From: Methanoculleus chikugoensis
Lineage (GTDB): Archaea; Halobacteriota; Methanomicrobia; Methanomicrobiales; Methanoculleaceae
Direction of reading: 5' to 3'
Length of the DNA: 64,000 nucleotides
Assembly (NCBI RefSeq): GCF_019669965.1
Contig: NZ_AP019781.1
Coordinates: 1,178,001-1,242,000 of the forward strand
Below are positions 14,792 through 56,400 of the stretch, piece by piece. The position numbers and the translations under genes were made by a program. Every line of letters begins with the position of its first letter. Positions within the stretch are counted from its first letter, which is position 1. Below the pieces are notes generated by a model, which worked only from the letters and a program-made list of their open reading frames with translations, ran no database searches and was not told the DNA's origin.

Positions 14792-15565
14792 TCACCGTGC
14801 CGCTGCGGTCGCCGTCGCCTCCTCCCGGACGGTGAAGAGGTCGCGAAGAGTCTCCTTGATGCAGGCCTCGAAGATCTCCCGCACGTGGGTATGGGCGATC
14901 TCGAGCCAGTCGGCAACCCCGTCCGGCGGAATGTTCTGGCCTTCCGTCAGGTAGTAGTCGATGTTTAAGAGGAACGCGTTGTGCTCCGTCGATTCGGGGA
15001 CGGCGTCGGTGAGTTCCACCCGGCAGTTGTCGCGGTTGTCGTGGAACGAGAACTCGCACCCGGTGATGAACCCCGCCGGCACCCGCGGGAGTTCCGGCGG
15101 GAGGGCGGGGTAGAAGGCGAAGTAGTCCGAGAGCGCCACCTCCCGCTCTGGGATCTCGATGAAGTTGACGTAGCGCAGGTTCATGGTGCCGATGGCGTCG
15201 GTGCCGATGACCTCCCGGAACCGGTCGAACGCGCCGTGAATCCGCTCCGAAAAGGCCTCCCAGTGGACGTAGGGTTTCTGGCAGCTCACCGAGAGCAGGC
15301 GGGGCCCGACCTGGACGGCGCAGCCTTCGTCCTCGGCAAGAAAGATCGAGCGTTCGCCGACCAGGAGTTCTTCGCGGAGTCCTTCAGGGCCGAGGAGCAT
15401 CACCACCTCGCGCACGTAGCGCTGGTCGCGTTTCGGGTAGGCGTCTTTTAAGTGACCATACAGCATGCCGGGGTAGGTCAGGTCCCAGGGGGTGTCCTCG
15501 GGGAACCGGAACTCGCATATCACTTCGGCGGCGGGCGGGTTGACGTACTTCCGTACTTCTGCCAT
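14792..15565 (-). CDS. TIGR04255 family protein
   Basis: This protein of 257 residues opens MAEVRKYVNPPAAEVICEFR and includes LLSVSCQKPYVHWEAFSERI and TMNLRYVNFIEIP. These are features of the sporadically distributed TIGR04255 family. Members average about 250 residues, often lie near defence or mobile genes, and have no established function. It is soluble, with no signal peptide or membrane helix. The gene stands alone, 12 bases convergent with the DUF2795-like gene. G+C matches its surroundings, so recent transfer is not obvious. Confidence 0.75.
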   Translation of the reverse strand: MAEVRKYVNPPAAEVICEFRFPEDTPWDLTYPGMLYGHLKDAYPKRDQRYVREVVMLLGPEGLREELLVGERSIFLAEDEGCAVQVGPRLLSVSCQKPYVHWEAFSERIHGAFDRFREVIGTDAIGTMNLRYVNFIEIPEREVALSDYFAFYPALPPELPRVPAGFITGCEFSFHDNRDNCRVELTDAVPESTEHNAFLLNIDYYLTEGQNIPPDGVADWLEIAHTHVREIFEACIKETLRDLFTVREEATATAAAR

Positions 15566-17501: not shown

Positions 17502-18455
17502 TCAGCCGAGCACCAGGATCCGGCGGGTCAGGCTCTTGTGCACCCGCTGCTCGTGCTCCTGCAGGACGGTGAAGTGTTGGGCGGCGATCGGCGTGATGTC
17601 GCGGTGCGTGACGACGACCGCGCGCCTCCCGGGCCGGAGGATGCGCCGGATCTCCGCAAGCGATCCGTCGTAGAGCTCGTCCATGCTCTCGGCGCGGATT
17701 CTGACCGACTGGCCGTAGGGGAGGTCGGTCACGACCGAATCAAGCGCCCCGTCGCAGATCGGGACCGCCGTAGCGTCGGCGATCAGCACATCGGACCCCG
17801 GGAGGTTCTGCCGGTAGCCGTCGACCATCGCGGGGTCGAAGTCGCTCCCGAGGATCCGGACGCCGATCTCCCGGGCTTCGAGCAGGATCCCGCCGGTGCC
17901 GCAGAAGGGATCATAGACCCGTTCCCCCGGGTGGACCAGGGAGATGTTCACGAGCGCCCGGGCCATCCGGGGCATCATCACGCCGGGGTGGAAGAACGGC
18001 CGGCGCATGGGGTTCCGGGCATCGAACCCGCCCCGGTCGATCCGGAGGATGACGCGGCCGAAGTAGCAGCGGTCTTCCGAGACGACGGCGCGGTATTCCT
18101 CGACCGGGTCGCGGAGCGAGACCGGGCCGGCGATCAGGGTTCCGATCAGCCGCTCCAGGTCGAGACGCTCGATATCCATCCTGCTCCCCTGGATCATCTT
18201 CCCCCGGCCGACGAACGGTTTTTCGGTCGTGATCGCGAGGTCGCGGAGGAGATCCGCAAACGCCGCCCTTGTGGGTTCGCACTCCCCGAGGTACTCCATC
18301 ACCACATGCGTCAGGGCGAGGCGCCCGGCGGCCAGGGGGTCGGGGCACTCGGCGACCGCGACCTGGGCCCGCCGGTCGAGGACGGTTCCCACGCACTCCA
18401 GTTCCGCGACGGGAAGGTCGGGATGCTCGCCGGAGAGTTCGAAGAGCAGCTTCAT
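17502..18455 (-). CDS. trmG10: tRNA (guanine(10)-N2)-dimethyltransferase
   Basis: The protein has 317 residues and methylates the exocyclic amine of G10 in tRNA using S-adenosylmethionine, an archaeal modification. The N-terminal half is THUMP-like. The C-terminal Rossmann methyltransferase has the SAM-binding YDPFCGTGGILLEA, an acidic loop ILGSDFDPAMV and the amino-methyltransferase motif VTDLPYGQS (D-L-P-Y, typical of N2-guanine methylation). Length and motif order match TrmG10/Trm11. It is monocistronic, with repeat sequence on both sides. Confidence 0.88.
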   Translation of the reverse strand: MKLLFELSGEHPDLPVAELECVGTVLDRRAQVAVAECPDPLAAGRLALTHVVMEYLGECEPTRAAFADLLRDLAITTEKPFVGRGKMIQGSRMDIERLDLERLIGTLIAGPVSLRDPVEEYRAVVSEDRCYFGRVILRIDRGGFDARNPMRRPFFHPGVMMPRMARALVNISLVHPGERVYDPFCGTGGILLEAREIGVRILGSDFDPAMVDGYRQNLPGSDVLIADATAVPICDGALDSVVTDLPYGQSVRIRAESMDELYDGSLAEIRRILRPGRRAVVVTHRDITPIAAQHFTVLQEHEQRVHKSLTRRILVLG

Positions 18456-18625: not shown

Positions 18626-18912
18626 GCACGGATTTCGAGGGATATCGCCACGCACTGCCCCCGCCCCGAGGTGTGGGGTGCGACGGGCCGTAGGGCCGGA
18701 GCATGAGCACCGTTAGGTGCGAATGAGGAGGCCGGAGGCCGGGCGGGGTGGGGGCTACGGGCAGCCCCTCCCCTGTCTCCGAGGTCAACCTAGTGGATTC
18801 TGGATCTGACTAAGAGACTGTTCCCTTCGCCCCCCCACCGCCCGCGCTTCGCGCTCCTCCCGCCCCCGGAGGGGGCGGGCAGTGCGCGGCGATATCCAGT
18901 GGGAATCCGTGC
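18626..18912. repeat. Dispersed repeat family A, copy 3 (best terminal inverted repeats)
   Basis: The left arm is GCACGGATTTCGAGGGATAT continuing CGCCACGCACTGCCCCCGCC. The right arm, reversed, is GCACGGATTCCCACTGGATA continuing TCGCCGCGCACTGCCCGCCC. The arms are about 40 bases long with few mismatches. The interior has a family B module at 18680-18725. The structure resembles a 287-bp non-autonomous mobile element. Confidence 0.8.
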
Positions 18913-19030
18913 ATGGGTTGGTGCGGGTAACCCCTCTTGGACGTCAGTATTCGCGCTTCCGACGCTCGAATCATAGCCTGCCCACCAACCCGGGTCACAT
19001 CAGACCACTATAAAAAAGCCAAACCGCCAA

Positions 19031-19170
19031 AGTGAGAGGCTCCCCCTCCTCCACCGACGCTTTCATCTTGTCGCCGCCGCCCCGGAAGAAGCCCTTACCC
19101 TTCTTCGCGGAGGGTTCGGGATCCTCCCCCTCCAGGCGGTCGGGCACGACGATCCGCACCCGCGCAACCA
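19031..19170 (-). pseudogene. Decayed copy of the dnaJ 3' end
   Basis: The plus strand reads the same as the 3' end of dnaJ near 21.42-21.58 kb, with small changes and two internal deletions. Shared blocks include CTTTCATCTTGTCG, GGAAGAAGCCCTT and a run of about 30 bases starting AGGCGGTCGGGCACGACGAT. It has no 5' part and cannot be translated as DnaJ. Same orientation and a distance of 2.4 kb from the real dnaJ suggest the intervening methyltransferase/Fic segment was inserted at the end of dnaJ or created with a duplication. Confidence 0.8.
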
Positions 19171-19276
19171 TACCGCCGTGCTTCGAGCGGCCGGACGCTA
19201 TCAGGGTCGAGAGTCTTGCAGATCCGGTTTTCCGGGACTTGAGATCCGGCGAATTCTCGGGATCACGGAAATGTGG

Positions 19277-20044
19277 TCATATCTTCTTCCCGATATAAAA
19301 AACATATCCGTAATACCGTTTGTATTTTGAATACAGATCTGCTTCGCGCCTCATGAATGCAATCATATCCTCAACGGTTTTATTTCCCGCATATTTCTTC
19401 AAGAATTCCTCTTGCCGTGCTTTCTGCGGAACGAAATAATTGTCTATCCAGCACCGTTCAGGCAGCGTAAATGCGGCAACAGGAACATAACCTGCTTTTT
19501 GCATGATGGAGATGTTATGCGCTATCGTGCTGATTTCAGGAACCGCGTCCAACCACCACTTCTCAATCTCGGCGGGGCGTTCATCGGTATACCATGACTC
19601 GTACGTTACGGCGACATACCCATCTTTTTTGAGGAAGCGTCTCCAGTGATTCAAGCCCCGTTCAAAACCGATATTGGCGATAGCCCCCTCAGACCATATC
19701 AGATCAAATTCGTCGTCCTGAAACGGCAGATTATCCATCGACCCGACAATTCCTTTCACCCTGTCCTGCAAACCGAGTTTGGCGGCTGTTGCGTTGAGTT
19801 TATCAATCGAGCCGGCGTAAAGGTCGAGGGCGGTGATGGCTGCTTCTGTATTTTGTGCCAGAACCATTGTTTGAAAGCCTGTGCCGCAGCCTAAATCGGC
19901 AATTTTTGTTTTGTTTGAAAGGTTTCCGATAAAACCCAATGCCCTGATGGTTTCTTCGGGGCTGCCGGGTCCCTGCCGTTCAAGCTCTGTAAAAAATTCA
20001 TTGATGAGGGCAAAATCAATTTCGTGGATTGTTGTTTCTTCCAT
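19277..20044 (-). CDS. Class I SAM-dependent methyltransferase
   Basis: This protein of 255 residues has a methyltransferase-11/25 type core: IADLGCGTGFQTMVLAQN (SAM motif I), TALDLYAGSIDKL (acidic motif II) and DLIWSEGAIANIGFERGL (motif post I-III). It is a small-molecule methyltransferase of unknown substrate; the family includes UbiE-like and arsenite-type enzymes, but no arsenic cysteines stand out. The ribosome site AAGGAG and the ATG at 20044 are clear. The gene is visibly AT-richer than the genome and follows a truncated reading frame in the same orientation, so it probably came from a bacterium (Firmicutes-like codon use, an impression). It lies between the decayed dnaJ copy and the Fic gene. 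Confidence 0.85.
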   Translation of the reverse strand: MEETTIHEIDFALINEFFTELERQGPGSPEETIRALGFIGNLSNKTKIADLGCGTGFQTMVLAQNTEAAITALDLYAGSIDKLNATAAKLGLQDRVKGIVGSMDNLPFQDDEFDLIWSEGAIANIGFERGLNHWRRFLKKDGYVAVTYESWYTDERPAEIEKWWLDAVPEISTIAHNISIMQKAGYVPVAAFTLPERCWIDNYFVPQKARQEEFLKKYAGNKTVEDMIAFMRREADLYSKYKRYYGYVFYIGKKI

Positions 20045-20065
20045 GTCATACTCCTTAACTTCTAA

Positions 20066-20176
20066 TTACACCTTAACGATTTTTGCCATGCCTTTACGCT
20101 TCCGCTCCTCTGCCGCAAGGTAACTTTCAGCGTCCTCAGCATAAGCGTTTTCAGCCTTTAATGCTTGATAAGACCG
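20066..20176 (-). pseudogene. Truncated C-terminal remnant upstream of the methyltransferase
   Basis: A 36-codon open frame without a start ends at the TAA at 20066-20068, just before the methyltransferase. It encodes a charged helical tail (YQALKAENAYAEDAESYLAA, then EERKRKGMAKIVKV). Its AT-rich composition and close spacing suggest the end of a donor-operon gene that was cut by the transfer event. The family is not recognised. Confidence 0.5.
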
Positions 20177-20283
20177 TCAACGCTCTGATGATTAATCCCC
20201 GCTTTCAATGAAGGCGATTACAGCGCAACCTGGTTAACCCTGCAGTAACCTTTTCTTCTCTCAAGACTGAGATCAACAAAGCC

Positions 20284-21312
20284 ATGCCGGAACTGACGGT
20301 AAAGACAATCAAGGGCAATAAATACCTCTACATCAGAGATAAAGTTAAAGTTAACTCAAAATCGCTGCCGCTTCAGATATACATCGGAAGGCTCGAAACG
20401 GTAGCCCGAGAGGACGTTTTATCAAAACTCTCCGTTCTCCATACTCTCAGGTTAACAACATACCTCGATTACCGGCTGGAGCATTACTCCTTCACGGCCC
20501 TCGACAGAACCCGGGCCGTCGATCTCGAAACTCTTCATTACTTCTACGGACTTTTCAAGGAACTCTACCCCGATGAGAGCGAGCGTTATGTGGATGCAAT
20601 GTATCTCAGATATGTTCAGGGCACGACGGCGATCGAGGGGAATACCATCAGTCTCCGGGAAGCGCAGGAACTCCTGGAACATAACATCTCTCCGGCCGGA
20701 AAGAAGATGGATGAGGTGTACGAGATCCTCAATTTCATCAACCTCCGAAGATACCTCGAAGGGTATTCCGGGGATATAACTGAGAAGCTCATCAGGAAGA
20801 TCCACGAGATACTGATGAATGAGGTCCTCCGGGACCCGGGAGACTATCGGAACATCCAGGTAGGCATCGAGCGGGTGGACTATGAACCACCTCCCGCGAT
20901 CCTCGTCCCTGAGGAGATGGGTGCTCTCATCGGGTGGTACCGGCAGAATAAACGGCACCTGAATCCGTTCGAACTCGCCGTAGTACTCCACACAAAATTT
21001 GAGATGATCCATCCGTTCATCGATGGAAACGGAAGGGTTGGACGGGCGTTGATAAATTTAGTCCTGGAACGATCCGGTTATCCAACGCTCTACCTGGGAT
21101 TGGAACACCGGTCGGCCTACCTGAACGCGTTCGTGAAGGCAGATGACGGAGATTATGCCCCGATCATCGAGACGCTGTATACCATCTACAGAGAGCAGCA
21201 CGGGCGAATCGCAGATGCGGTCGGGCAGAAATTTTCCGACGGAAACAGCAGGATCCGGGAGGAAAACGCCAGGCTCGTCCGGCAGTTCGCTGAACTGAAG
21301 AAAAAAGTCTGA
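20284..21312 (+). CDS. Fic-domain protein (AMP-transferase family)
   Basis: The protein has 342 residues. The Fic core holds the complete active motif HPFIDGNGRVGR at 243-254, with the catalytic His243, so it should be able to transfer AMP or another nucleotide part from NTPs to protein hydroxyls. The autoinhibitory motif TTAIEGN at 114-120 (Glu118) lies N-terminal, as in class II Fic proteins. The N-terminal 80 residues form a small domain of unknown role (MPELTVKTIKGNKYLYIRDK). The C-terminus (SRIREENARLVRQFAELKKK) is a possible coiled coil or winged helix. It stands between the foreign methyltransferase and dnaJ. No cognate antitoxin gene is visible; the inhibitory helix is built in. Confidence 0.92.
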   Translation: MPELTVKTIKGNKYLYIRDKVKVNSKSLPLQIYIGRLETVAREDVLSKLSVLHTLRLTTYLDYRLEHYSFTALDRTRAVDLETLHYFYGLFKELYPDESERYVDAMYLRYVQGTTAIEGNTISLREAQELLEHNISPAGKKMDEVYEILNFINLRRYLEGYSGDITEKLIRKIHEILMNEVLRDPGDYRNIQVGIERVDYEPPPAILVPEEMGALIGWYRQNKRHLNPFELAVVLHTKFEMIHPFIDGNGRVGRALINLVLERSGYPTLYLGLEHRSAYLNAFVKADDGDYAPIIETLYTIYREQHGRIADAVGQKFSDGNSRIREENARLVRQFAELKKKV

Positions 21313-21426
21313 TGTCCGATCGAGCAGCCGCCCGGAGTGCAGGAACGACGGCCCGGGTTCAGATCCCGGCCGGGGCTCACACCAAAAGAGTTCAGAAGCC
21401 AGATCGACGAAGTGAGGGACTCCCTC

Positions 21427-22575
21427 TCACTTCACCGACTCTTTCATCTTGTCGACGACGTCCTGGAAGAAGCCCTTGCCCTTCTTCGCGCCCTTCGCGG
21501 AGGGTTTGTGCCCCTCGATCTCGAGCAGGCGCAGATAGAGTTCGCGCTCCTCCTCCGTCAGGCGGTCGGGCACGACGATCCGCACCCGCACCAGCATGTC
21601 GCCGGGCTTCGTCTGCCACCGGACGCCCTCGCCCGGGATCTTCAGCCCGGTATTGTGCTGCACGCCCGGCGGGACATTGAGGACGACCGTGCGCCCGTCG
21701 ATCGTCTGCACCTCGACCTCGGAGCCCAGCACCGCCTGGGCCGGGGTGACATCGACCGCCGTCTCCAGGTCGTCGCCCCGCCGGGTGAACGACCGGTGCG
21801 GCGCGACGCTGATCTCGATATAGAGGTCTCCCGGCGGCGCACCGTAATCCCCGGCGTCGCCGTAGCCCTCCATCCGGAGGCGCATCCCCGTATCCACGCC
21901 CGGCGGGATCCTGACCTTCACCGTCTGCCGGGCACGCCGGTGCCCCGTTCCGCCGCAGGCCTTGCACCGGGTCTCGGGGACCCTCCCCCGGCCGCCGCAG
22001 GCGGTGCAGGGCGTCATCCGGACGAAGTTCCCGAAGATGGACTGGCTCATCTGCCGCATCTGGCCGCTGCCGCCACAGGTCGGGCAGGTGGTGGTCTTCT
22101 TCGTCTCGCTCCCCGAGCCGTCGCACTCCGGACAGGGTTCGACGTGGTCGACGCCGACCTCCTTCTCCGTCCCGAGCGCCGCCTCCTCGAGCGTGATGCG
22201 CATCTTCATCAGGAGGTCGGCACCGGGGCGCGGGCCGGCACGCTGCCTGCCCCCGCCGCCGAAGAAAGTCTCGAAGATATCCCCGAACCCGGAGAAGTCG
22301 GCGCTGAAGCCGCCCGAGTATCCGCCGCCGGCGTACGAGCCCTTCGACGCGCTGCTGTACGCCTCGTGCCCCATATTGTCGTACTGGGCGCGTTTCTGCG
22401 TATCCGAGAGGACGCTGTAGGCCTCGTTGATCTTCTTGAACTTCTCCTCGGCCCCCTCCTCCTTGCAGACGTCGGGGTGGTATTTTCGGGCCAGGCTCCG
22501 GTAGGCTTTCTTGATCTCCGCGTCATTGGCGCTCTGCGAGACACCGAGGATATCATAGTAGCTGTCCGGACCCAT
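21427..22575 (-). CDS. dnaJ: Chaperone DnaJ (Hsp40)
   Basis: The protein has 382 residues and is a type I J-protein that delivers clients to DnaK and stimulates its ATPase. The J domain (residues 5-70) carries HPD at 33-35. A Gly/Phe-rich linker, four CxxCxGxG zinc repeats ([32 protein letters not shown]) and the C-terminal substrate-binding domains follow. The ATG at 22575 has GAGGT close upstream. A GTG at 22584 overlapping the dnaK stop is an alternative start. The last gene of grpE-dnaK-dnaJ, its 3' end is duplicated in decayed form at 19.03-19.17 kb. Confidence 0.96.
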
Positions 22576-22580
22576 CGACC

Positions 22581-24407
22581 TCACTCTTTGACTTCGTAAT
22601 CGGCATCGACGACGTTATCGCCCTTCTTTGCGGTCTCTTCCGCCTTCTGCTGCTGGGCGGCCGCCTGTGCCTGCTGGTACATCTTCGTCGTCAGCGCATA
22701 TACCGCTTCGGTCAGGGCATCCATCTTCTGCTTGATCGCCTCGAGGTCGTCGCCCTCGAGCGCCTTCTTGAGGTCGGCGATCGCGCTCTCGATCTTCTCC
22801 TTGTCCGCGGCCTCGACCGACTCGCCTGCGTCCTTCATCGCCCGCTCGGCGGTGAAGATCGCGGTGTCGGCGGTGTTCCTGAGTTCGATCTCCTCGCGAT
22901 TCTTCTGGTCCTCCTCCTCGAACTTCTTTGCGTCGTCCATCATCCGCTGGATCTCGGCTTCGGACGGGCGGGAGTCCTGCGGCTTGATGGTGATCGACTG
23001 CTCGTTCCCCGTGCCGAGGTCTTTCGCCGAGACGTGGACGATGCCGTTTGCGTCGATATCGAACGTGACCTCGATCTGCGGGATGCCCCGGGGTGCGGGC
23101 GGGATGCCCGTGAGCTGGAACCGCCCGAGCGTGAAGTTGTCCTTTGCGAGCGCCCGCTCGCCCTGCATCACGTGGATCTCGACCGAGGTCTGGCCGTCGG
23201 CGGCGGTCGAGAAGATCTGGCTCTTCCGCGTCGGGATGGTGGTGTTGCGCTCGATAAGCTTCGTCGCGATGCCGCCGAGCGTCTCGATGCCGAGCGAGAG
23301 CGGGGTCACGTCGAGGAGCAGGACGTCCTTCGTCTCGCCGGTCAGCACCCCTGCCTGGATGGCGGCGCCGAGGGCTACGCACTCGTCGGGGTTGATGCCT
23401 TTGTCGGGCTCCTTCTTGAGAACCTTCTTTATGGTCTCCTGCACGAGCGGGACACGGGTCGACCCGCCGACGAGGAGAACGTGGTCGATATCGTCGGCGC
23501 TCAGTTTGGCGTCGGAGAGCGCCTGCTTCACCGGCCCGAGGGTCGAGTCGACGAGGTCGGCGATCAGGCTCTCAAACTTCGCCCGGGAGAGATCGGTGTC
23601 GAGGAACTTGGGCCCGCTCTCCGTCGTGGTGATGTAGGGAAGGTTGATGTTGGTCTTCTGGACGGTGGAGAGTTCGATCTTCGCGTTCTCGGCTGCGTCG
23701 CGCAGCCGCTGCATCGCGACCGGGTCGTTCTGGAGGTTGACGCCCTCCTTCTTCCTGAACTCCTCGACCAGGTAGTCGACGACCCTCTTATCGAAGTCGT
23801 CGCCGCCGAGGCGGTTGTTGCCTGCGGTCGCCTTGACCTCGAAGACGCCGTCGCCGAGCTGGAGGATCGAGACATCGAACGTGCCGCCGCCGAGATCGTA
23901 GACGAGCACCGTGGAGTCGCCTTCCTTGTCGATGCCGTAGGCGAGCGCGCTCGCGGTCGGTTCGTTGATGATCCGGAGCACCTCGAGGCCGGCGATCGTC
24001 CCTGCGTCCTTCGTTGCCTGCCGCTGGGCGTCGTTGAAGTAGGCCGGCACCGTGATGACGGCTTTCGCGATCTTCTCGCCGAGGTACTCCTCCGCGTCCA
24101 GTTTCATCTTCTGGAGGATCATCGCGGAGATCTCCTGCGGGGTGTACGACTTGTCCCCGATGGTGACCTTCTCGTTCGTGCCCATCTTCCGCTTGATCGA
24201 CTGGATGGTGCGGTTCGGGTTCGTGATCGCCTGCCGTTTCGCGACGTTGCCGACCAGCCGCTCGCCCTCCTTGGAGAACGCTACGACCGACGGAGTGGTC
24301 CTGCCGCCCTCGGCGTTGGCGATGACCGTTGCCCGCCCGCCTTCCATGATTGCCATGCACGAGTTGGTTGTTCCAAGATCGATACCCAGAACTTTTTCCG
24401 AAACCAT
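22581..24407 (-). CDS. dnaK: Chaperone DnaK (Hsp70)
   Basis: The protein has 608 residues. The ATPase domain begins [19 protein letters not shown], with phosphate motif [20 protein letters not shown] and [13 protein letters not shown]. The substrate-binding domain contains [17 protein letters not shown], and the lid ends in a Gln/Ala-rich tail finishing [10 protein letters not shown]. The start at 24407 has an ideal GGAGGAAT site and lies 4 bases after grpE. The full bacterial-type chaperone set is known in many mesophilic methanogens, where it was acquired from bacteria. Confidence 0.97.
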
Positions 24408-55827: not shown

Positions 55828-56400
55828 GCAGGACATCTTCGCGTCCTTCGCGGCGCGAAGCCTACGGCTTCTCAGACTCCTTCCCCAAAGGGGAAGTCGT
55901 TCTTCGCGTGAGTTGACAGTTTATGAGTAATGACACGGCCTCACGCGAAGTGCGACGGATGGAATGTCCGGAGCATGAGAAGCCATCTGGCTTCGAAGGG
56001 GAGTTACTCACAACCAAACGGTTCTTCGCGGCTTCGCGTGAGGTAACTGGTGCAGATAACGATACAGTCTCACGCGAAGGACGCGAAGCCGCGAAGAACG
56101 ACAGGCCGAAGGGCCGGAGTTCGAGCACCGTCAGGCGCGAAGTGCGACGCTCCGTAGGAACGGAGCTTGAGAAACCCGGAGGGTTTCGAAGTGCGACTGG
56201 CTGAAGGGCAGGAGCATGAACACCGTAGGCGTGAAGCCGCGAAGAACGACAGGCCGAAGGGCCGGAGTTCGAGCACCGTCAGGCGCGAAGTGCGACGCTC
56301 CGTAGGAACGGAGCTTGAGAAACCCGGAGGGTTTCGAAGTGCGACTGGCTGAAGGGCAGGAGCATGAACACCGTAGGCGTGAAGCCGCGAAGGAGAAGTT
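55828..56400. repeat. Family B repeat cluster with 148-bp tandem duplication
   Basis: The left part (55840-55920) is nearly identical to 17.31-17.40 kb, including the CTTCCCCAAAGGGGAAG hairpin. From 56085 a unit starting GAAGCCGCGAAGAACGACAG recurs at 56233 and partially at 56381, an exact period of 148 bases. Each unit holds GCGAAGTGCGACGCTCCG, CTTGAGAAACCCGGAGGG and GGCAGGAGCATGAACACC. Because 148 is not a multiple of three, the apparent short ORFs are not conserved by frame. The cluster lies between DUF421 and the tRNA-Trp 3' end. Confidence 0.85.

Follow-up and report, generated by a model that had tools for sequence, protein, structure and literature searches.

A recurrent insertion site may well lie directly behind dnaJ in Methanoculleus, at which cargo units brought their own dnaJ 3' end while the body of the resident gene was kept. 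We give this reading about an even chance. It is based on a window of 64,000 nt from the Methanoculleus chikugoensis genome (G000) and on comparison with the dnaJ loci of its congeners.

In the window, the functional dnaJ is located at 21427-22584 on the minus strand (385-aa ORF, 82-97% identical to congener orthologues). Its stop codon occupies 21427-21429 and its 3' end borders the insert. Self-comparison reveals a second, decayed dnaJ 3' end on the same strand at 19016-19198, on the distal boundary of the insert, which spans the last ~185 coding nt of dnaJ and ~30 nt downstream and which, according to the allele alignment, represents a short form with 9 nt deleted. Its proximal counterpart, delimited by self-comparison and congener alignment, comprises the dnaJ 3' end and the terminator region (21385-21626, minus strand). 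The two copies align in one block of 95 bp (84.2% identity, E 2e-21) and another of 80 bp (81%, E 3e-13), with small internal deletions between them. A decayed 140-bp copy in the same orientation, 2.4 kb from the real dnaJ end, had been described in the initial annotation of this DNA. It is borne out, the copy being slightly longer than assumed, with 2.4 kb from the real end (21427) to the copy and ~2.2 kb lying between. The window therefore combines an intact target, a 3' fragment in the same orientation and cargo between the two, as expected for an element integrated at a gene 3' end.

The insert has a GC content of 44-57% as compared to 64-72% on both sides. An AT-rich methyltransferase, a truncated remnant and a Fic gene had been reported between the dnaJ ends, and all three are found there at low GC. 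The fic gene (20284-21312, plus strand) matches Pfam PF02661 with an E-value of 1e-23, and both the FIC motif HPFIDGNGRVGR and an N-terminal TTAIEGN are intact. The latter, positioned nearer the N-terminus of Fic, is what we take to be the class II inhibitory motif, which points to a class II Fic under autoinhibition. Orthologues with 85-94% identity are present at the same locus in eight congeners and fragments in two more. Relatives at 68-71% occur in G002, G013, G022, G029 and G034, all at other loci. In G029 and G002 (L113, L115) the 71% relative adjoins a fragment (residues 50-83) of the orthologue of the window gene at 14792-15565, another instance of cargo next to part of a gene from the neighbourhood.

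The methyltransferase gene (mt; 19277-20044, minus strand, low GC) encodes a class I SAM-dependent enzyme as judged by family match and homologue comparison. It is preceded by a truncated leader (20045-20190, minus strand), which flank comparison identifies as the 3' remainder of an ORF otherwise lost; relatives of this leader stand upstream of mt in other genomes as well, to differing lengths. The mt gene is 75-92% identical to genes of Methanosarcina, Methanolobus, Firmicutes, Synergistaceae, Bacteroidetes and others. Based on these similarities we regard it as a clear case of cross-domain transfer, seemingly a frequent one involving archaea and several bacterial phyla. In three bacterial genomes mt is preceded by a TetR-type regulator, named from its sequence and not from a family search. 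A fixed mobile cassette around mt was considered and rejected, because the shared mt flanks stop at different points in each genome.

On the far side of the insert lies a TIGR01177-type methyltransferase gene, here termed trm (17502-18455, minus strand; NCBIfam TIGR01177, 4.7e-69, under the curated cut-off). In G005, G010, G012, G019, G023, G030 and G033 the gap between dnaJ and trm measures 170-640 bp and holds neither fic nor mt, and the adjacency extends to two further genera of this family (G035, G036). As downstream neighbour of dnaJ, trm is ancestral. The DNA fetched behind dnaJ (6-17 kb) in G011, G029, G024 and G022 (L052, L048, L049, L055) lacks trm and shows differing neighbours; the 3' side of dnaJ seems to be a frequent rearrangement point.

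The distal flank of the window insert (18908-19015, minus strand) corresponds to the DNA directly behind dnaJ in G033, an empty site, and to the proximal flank of G016, with 70% identity across 140-147 nt counted outward from the dnaJ end. The best case is provided by the distal flank of G016, which matches G007 at 92% over 161 nt. Further matches connect the distal flanks of G031 with G026, of G008 with G014, and of G001 with both G028 and G007. Carriers thus show at least three distal flank types, each with a matching empty site elsewhere. The empty site which the initial annotation had proposed to look for consequently exists, as other Methanoculleus join dnaJ straight to the DNA that follows the remnant, and in none of the relatives compared were two full dnaJ genes found at the locus. 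A dispersed extragenic repeat with units of ~80-130 bp, of which the genome holds dozens of copies, is located at 18627-18920.

Pieces of the dnaJ 3' end are found in five congeners besides the window genome (G001, G008, G009, G016, G031). G031 retains 63 nt. The copy of G016 was found across contigs, two ends of which share 99 identical overlapping bases; it probably lies ~12 kb behind dnaJ, an insertion sequence at the join lowering the certainty. In a self-comparison of 37 dnaJ loci (562 kb), partial 3'-end copies were seen for dnaJ alone (G000, G001, G008, G009), all other repeats having been sorted, by position and length only, into internal modules, paralogues and dispersed repeats.

Among the five congeners, G009 has a different cargo. 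It shows the order dnaJ, hxlB-like gene, dnaJ-end copy, 11,180-bp insert, fic, whereby the hxlB-like gene reaches no more than 48% identity with other members of the genus and the copy of the dnaJ 3' end measures 142 bp at 89% identity. In the 11,180-bp insert, genes for tubulin-like, GTPase-like and PEGA proteins follow one another (L047:4169-12981). Of 231 genomes from the order, 33 have tubulin-like genes related to the one in G009. A four-gene island with an SPFH/zinc-ribbon protein was found in only two of 231 Methanomicrobiales genomes (G015, G016), in both between dnaJ and trm; the two islands share 5.4 kb at 87% identity, the G015 assembly containing duplicated stretches and Ns. Moreover, G008 has an Avs2 defence gene in the interval from its dnaJ remnant to trm (L056:11514-16145; PADLOC, 1700 bits). 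Since several different cargoes (fic-mt, hxlB, the tubulin/PEGA island, the SPFH four-gene island and Avs2) occupy the one interval between dnaJ and trm, we consider it a recurrent cargo site.

The 11.2-kb insert of G009 has an exact 13-bp repeat, GCTCCGGCCGGGA, at both ends; the edges of the window insert are a long decayed repeat of 81-84% identity. The flanks of the G009 insert, when joined, yield the sequence that is uninterrupted in G008 and in the window, where the site is unoccupied. They align between the dnaJ terminator and fic to an attachment-like core resembling a tRNA T-arm (21353-21384, unstranded). A 27-nt stretch of it beside fic (21353-21379) resembles the T-arm and acceptor of tRNA-Arg with 3 mismatches, and there is no other such site in the genome. 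A tRNA gene as target was rejected, as ARAGORN predicts none at the site and Rfam gives no tRNA match, the likeness being confined to these T-arm-like 27 nt.

The fic-side end of the G009 insert carries a decayed tyrosine integrase (tblastn, best match E 1e-19, residues 28-192 of ~420). No integrase is encoded by the window ORFs at 19.0-21.4 kb, i.e. within the element, and a PF00589 search in 35 congeners found none adjoining dnaJ. The sole tyrosine recombinase detected in the window genome is located at 869 kb, 330 kb away, and is of a type found once in nearly every congener. Viral contigs contained no relative of mt or fic and only distant matches to dnaJ (26-47%), and no Methanoculleus-like dnaJ end was found in the plasmid, phage and viral sequences searched.

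The origin of the two dnaJ ends can be addressed by their alleles. Functional dnaJ occurs in two alleles, a long one and one that lacks 9 nt close to its 3' end. G000, G001, G008 and G016 each combine a short remnant with a long functional gene, such that the remnant carries the host's own allele in none of the four informative genomes, as opposed to what a local duplication would leave. The 9-nt difference sits in a repetitive stretch and may have multiple origins, but in the 11 empty-type dnaJ ends that were compared the allele is coupled to the flank type. The short allele of the window remnant is common to other carriers. Compared in 60-nt windows, the window dnaJ itself and its counterpart in G014, the sister species, are 93-100% identical until ~25 nt ahead of the stop codon. 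From the short remnant next to a long functional gene, together with the similarity to G014, it follows that the remnant most likely travelled with the insert and that the resident dnaJ stayed native and was not rebuilt. The crossover is most likely to have occurred near or just after the dnaJ stop codon. The initial annotation had an element entering the 3' end of dnaJ and rebuilding the gene. The entry is supported by empty sites and recurrent cargo, but the rebuilding is not supported, the gene body matching that of G014.

In the mechanism we favour, a site of a few hundred bases behind dnaJ would have been used repeatedly in Methanoculleus. Incoming DNA would have borne its own dnaJ 3' end, from about -185 to +75, and would have recombined somewhere between the final tens of bases of dnaJ and a point ~75 bp beyond the gene, a stretch that includes the attachment-like core GTGTGAGCCCCGGCCGGGA. 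After the crossover the resident dnaJ body would stand beside the cargo, in the window fic and the methyltransferase, and the carried copy would come to lie distally, abutting the resident flank, to decay thereafter. The agent would probably be a tyrosine recombinase, either the element's own or one acting in trans. A circular intermediate would be involved, and the fic-mt unit may have entered more than once. That one and the same mt-remnant junction is followed by differing flanks in G000, G001, G016 and G031 speaks for this mechanism. Some findings speak against it, among them the missing integrase in the window insert and the failure to find a Methanoculleus-like dnaJ end in the plasmid, phage and viral sequences. 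The 13-bp repeat sits at the core behind dnaJ and not at the edges of the dnaJ-copy unit. Furthermore, the mt tree splits roughly along host clades, which is also expected from one old entry, and the shared dnaJ segment of ~260 bp is enough for ordinary homologous recombination.

Homologous recombination alone is the first rival to be weighed, and we judge it unlikely. The DNA, circular or concatenated and stemming from a related archaeon, would have brought a dnaJ 3' fragment linked with fic and mt and would have entered by a single crossover in the ~260 bp, with no dedicated recombinase or site. Apart from the sufficient length of the segment, most islands being without integrase is in line with such an entry. 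The dnaJ 3' haplotypes, comprising allele and flank, switch as a block between sister species, e.g. G030/G033 and G026/G028. Since dnaJ 3' ends can be seen to have been swapped as blocks from species to species, a contribution by homologous exchange is very probable. However, random homologous entry predicts less than is seen, namely two unrelated cargoes with the dnaJ end on the same side and additional islands at this core, with a 13-bp repeat and the remains of an integrase.

A bolder reading, which we put forward tentatively and think rather unlikely, would see the fic-mt and hxlB units as two members of a group of tiny integrase-less mobile units. Each would consist of cargo plus the copied 3' end of a core gene (dnaJ) and would enter matching sites of other species via the carried end, by a recombinase in trans or by homologous recombination.

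Quite unlikely in our estimation is one ancestral insertion at the level of the genus, followed by vertical descent with some exchange and by many losses, in which recombination between the dnaJ ends would restore a clean empty site. The junction of mt and remnant is indeed identical in four species (G000, G001, G016, G031), the flanks beyond it differing, the divergence of mt and fic broadly resembles that of host genes, and the mt tree is compatible with the host clades. Yet a single event hardly accounts for the three or more distal flank types with their empty sites elsewhere, nor for fic of G003 and G027 being 99.5% identical in species that are not sisters, and the hxlB insert of G009 requires a second event.

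A local duplication of the dnaJ end with subsequent decay and an unrelated insertion of fic and mt, close to the old dnaJ duplication that the initial annotation had named as its alternative, would explain why a short host-gene copy adjoins its gene and why a useless copy decays, but is very improbable because the remnant lacks the host's own allele in 4 of 4 informative genomes, no other gene-end duplicate was recognised in 562 kb, and empty sites and differing cargoes are found.

Recurrent insertion behind dnaJ, as favoured here, has partial counterparts in known systems. In Escherichia coli, phage 21 and e14 sit at the housekeeping gene icd and carry ~160-220 bp from its 3' end. They replace the icd end, whereas at dnaJ the resident body is native. 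In the accessible part of a survey of Thaumarchaeota, 14 of 68 precisely mapped integrated elements reside in the 3'-distal part of protein-coding genes (PMC6563490). As with our insert, this is 3' gene-end insertion in archaea verified by empty sites in relatives. In contrast, the thaumarchaeal elements are larger and have short att repeats, while the dnaJ insert is 2.4 kb in size with a fragment of ~185 coding nt and no integrase, and dnaJ is not among the targets given in that part of the survey (PMC6563490). Archaeal att sites are there stated as 29-69 bp in crenarchaea (PMC6563490), so that the ~260-bp shared dnaJ segment is longer than usual, which counts against our favoured explanation.

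The gene-plus-fragment signature is standard for islands (PMC4383910). Islander tRNA-gene islands likewise show an intact target, a 3' fragment in the same orientation downstream and the island in between (PMC4383910). Islander, however, needs an integrase gene and a tRNA target, as opposed to a protein gene and no integrase here, and its fragment is the displaced resident, whereas the dnaJ fragment seems to be the incoming copy (PMC4383910). The defence-island hotspots of E. coli, as far as the accessible part of that study describes them, resemble the dnaJ locus in having varying cargoes, Avs2 included, in one core-gene interval; the dnaJ islands differ in being small and decayed and in carrying a piece of the neighbouring core gene (PMC10121019).

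None of the papers listed in the literature searches has dnaJ as an insertion target, judged by title and abstract. Insertion at 3' gene ends is already known, and dnaJ as the target appears to be new. Unusual is the combination of a carried gene end at the far side and an intact resident dnaJ. The locus shows repeated insertion beside a core chaperone gene in a genus of methanogens, with an anatomy in which the entry of DNA is recorded, and offers a testable case of cargo moving with a piece of its target gene. With Avs2, Fic, tubulin/GTPase and SPFH islands present, it is also a place to seek new archaeal defence or conflict genes. Elsewhere in the window, a 163-bp direct repeat with 99% identity is located at 56082-56392, its copies being offset by 148 bp.
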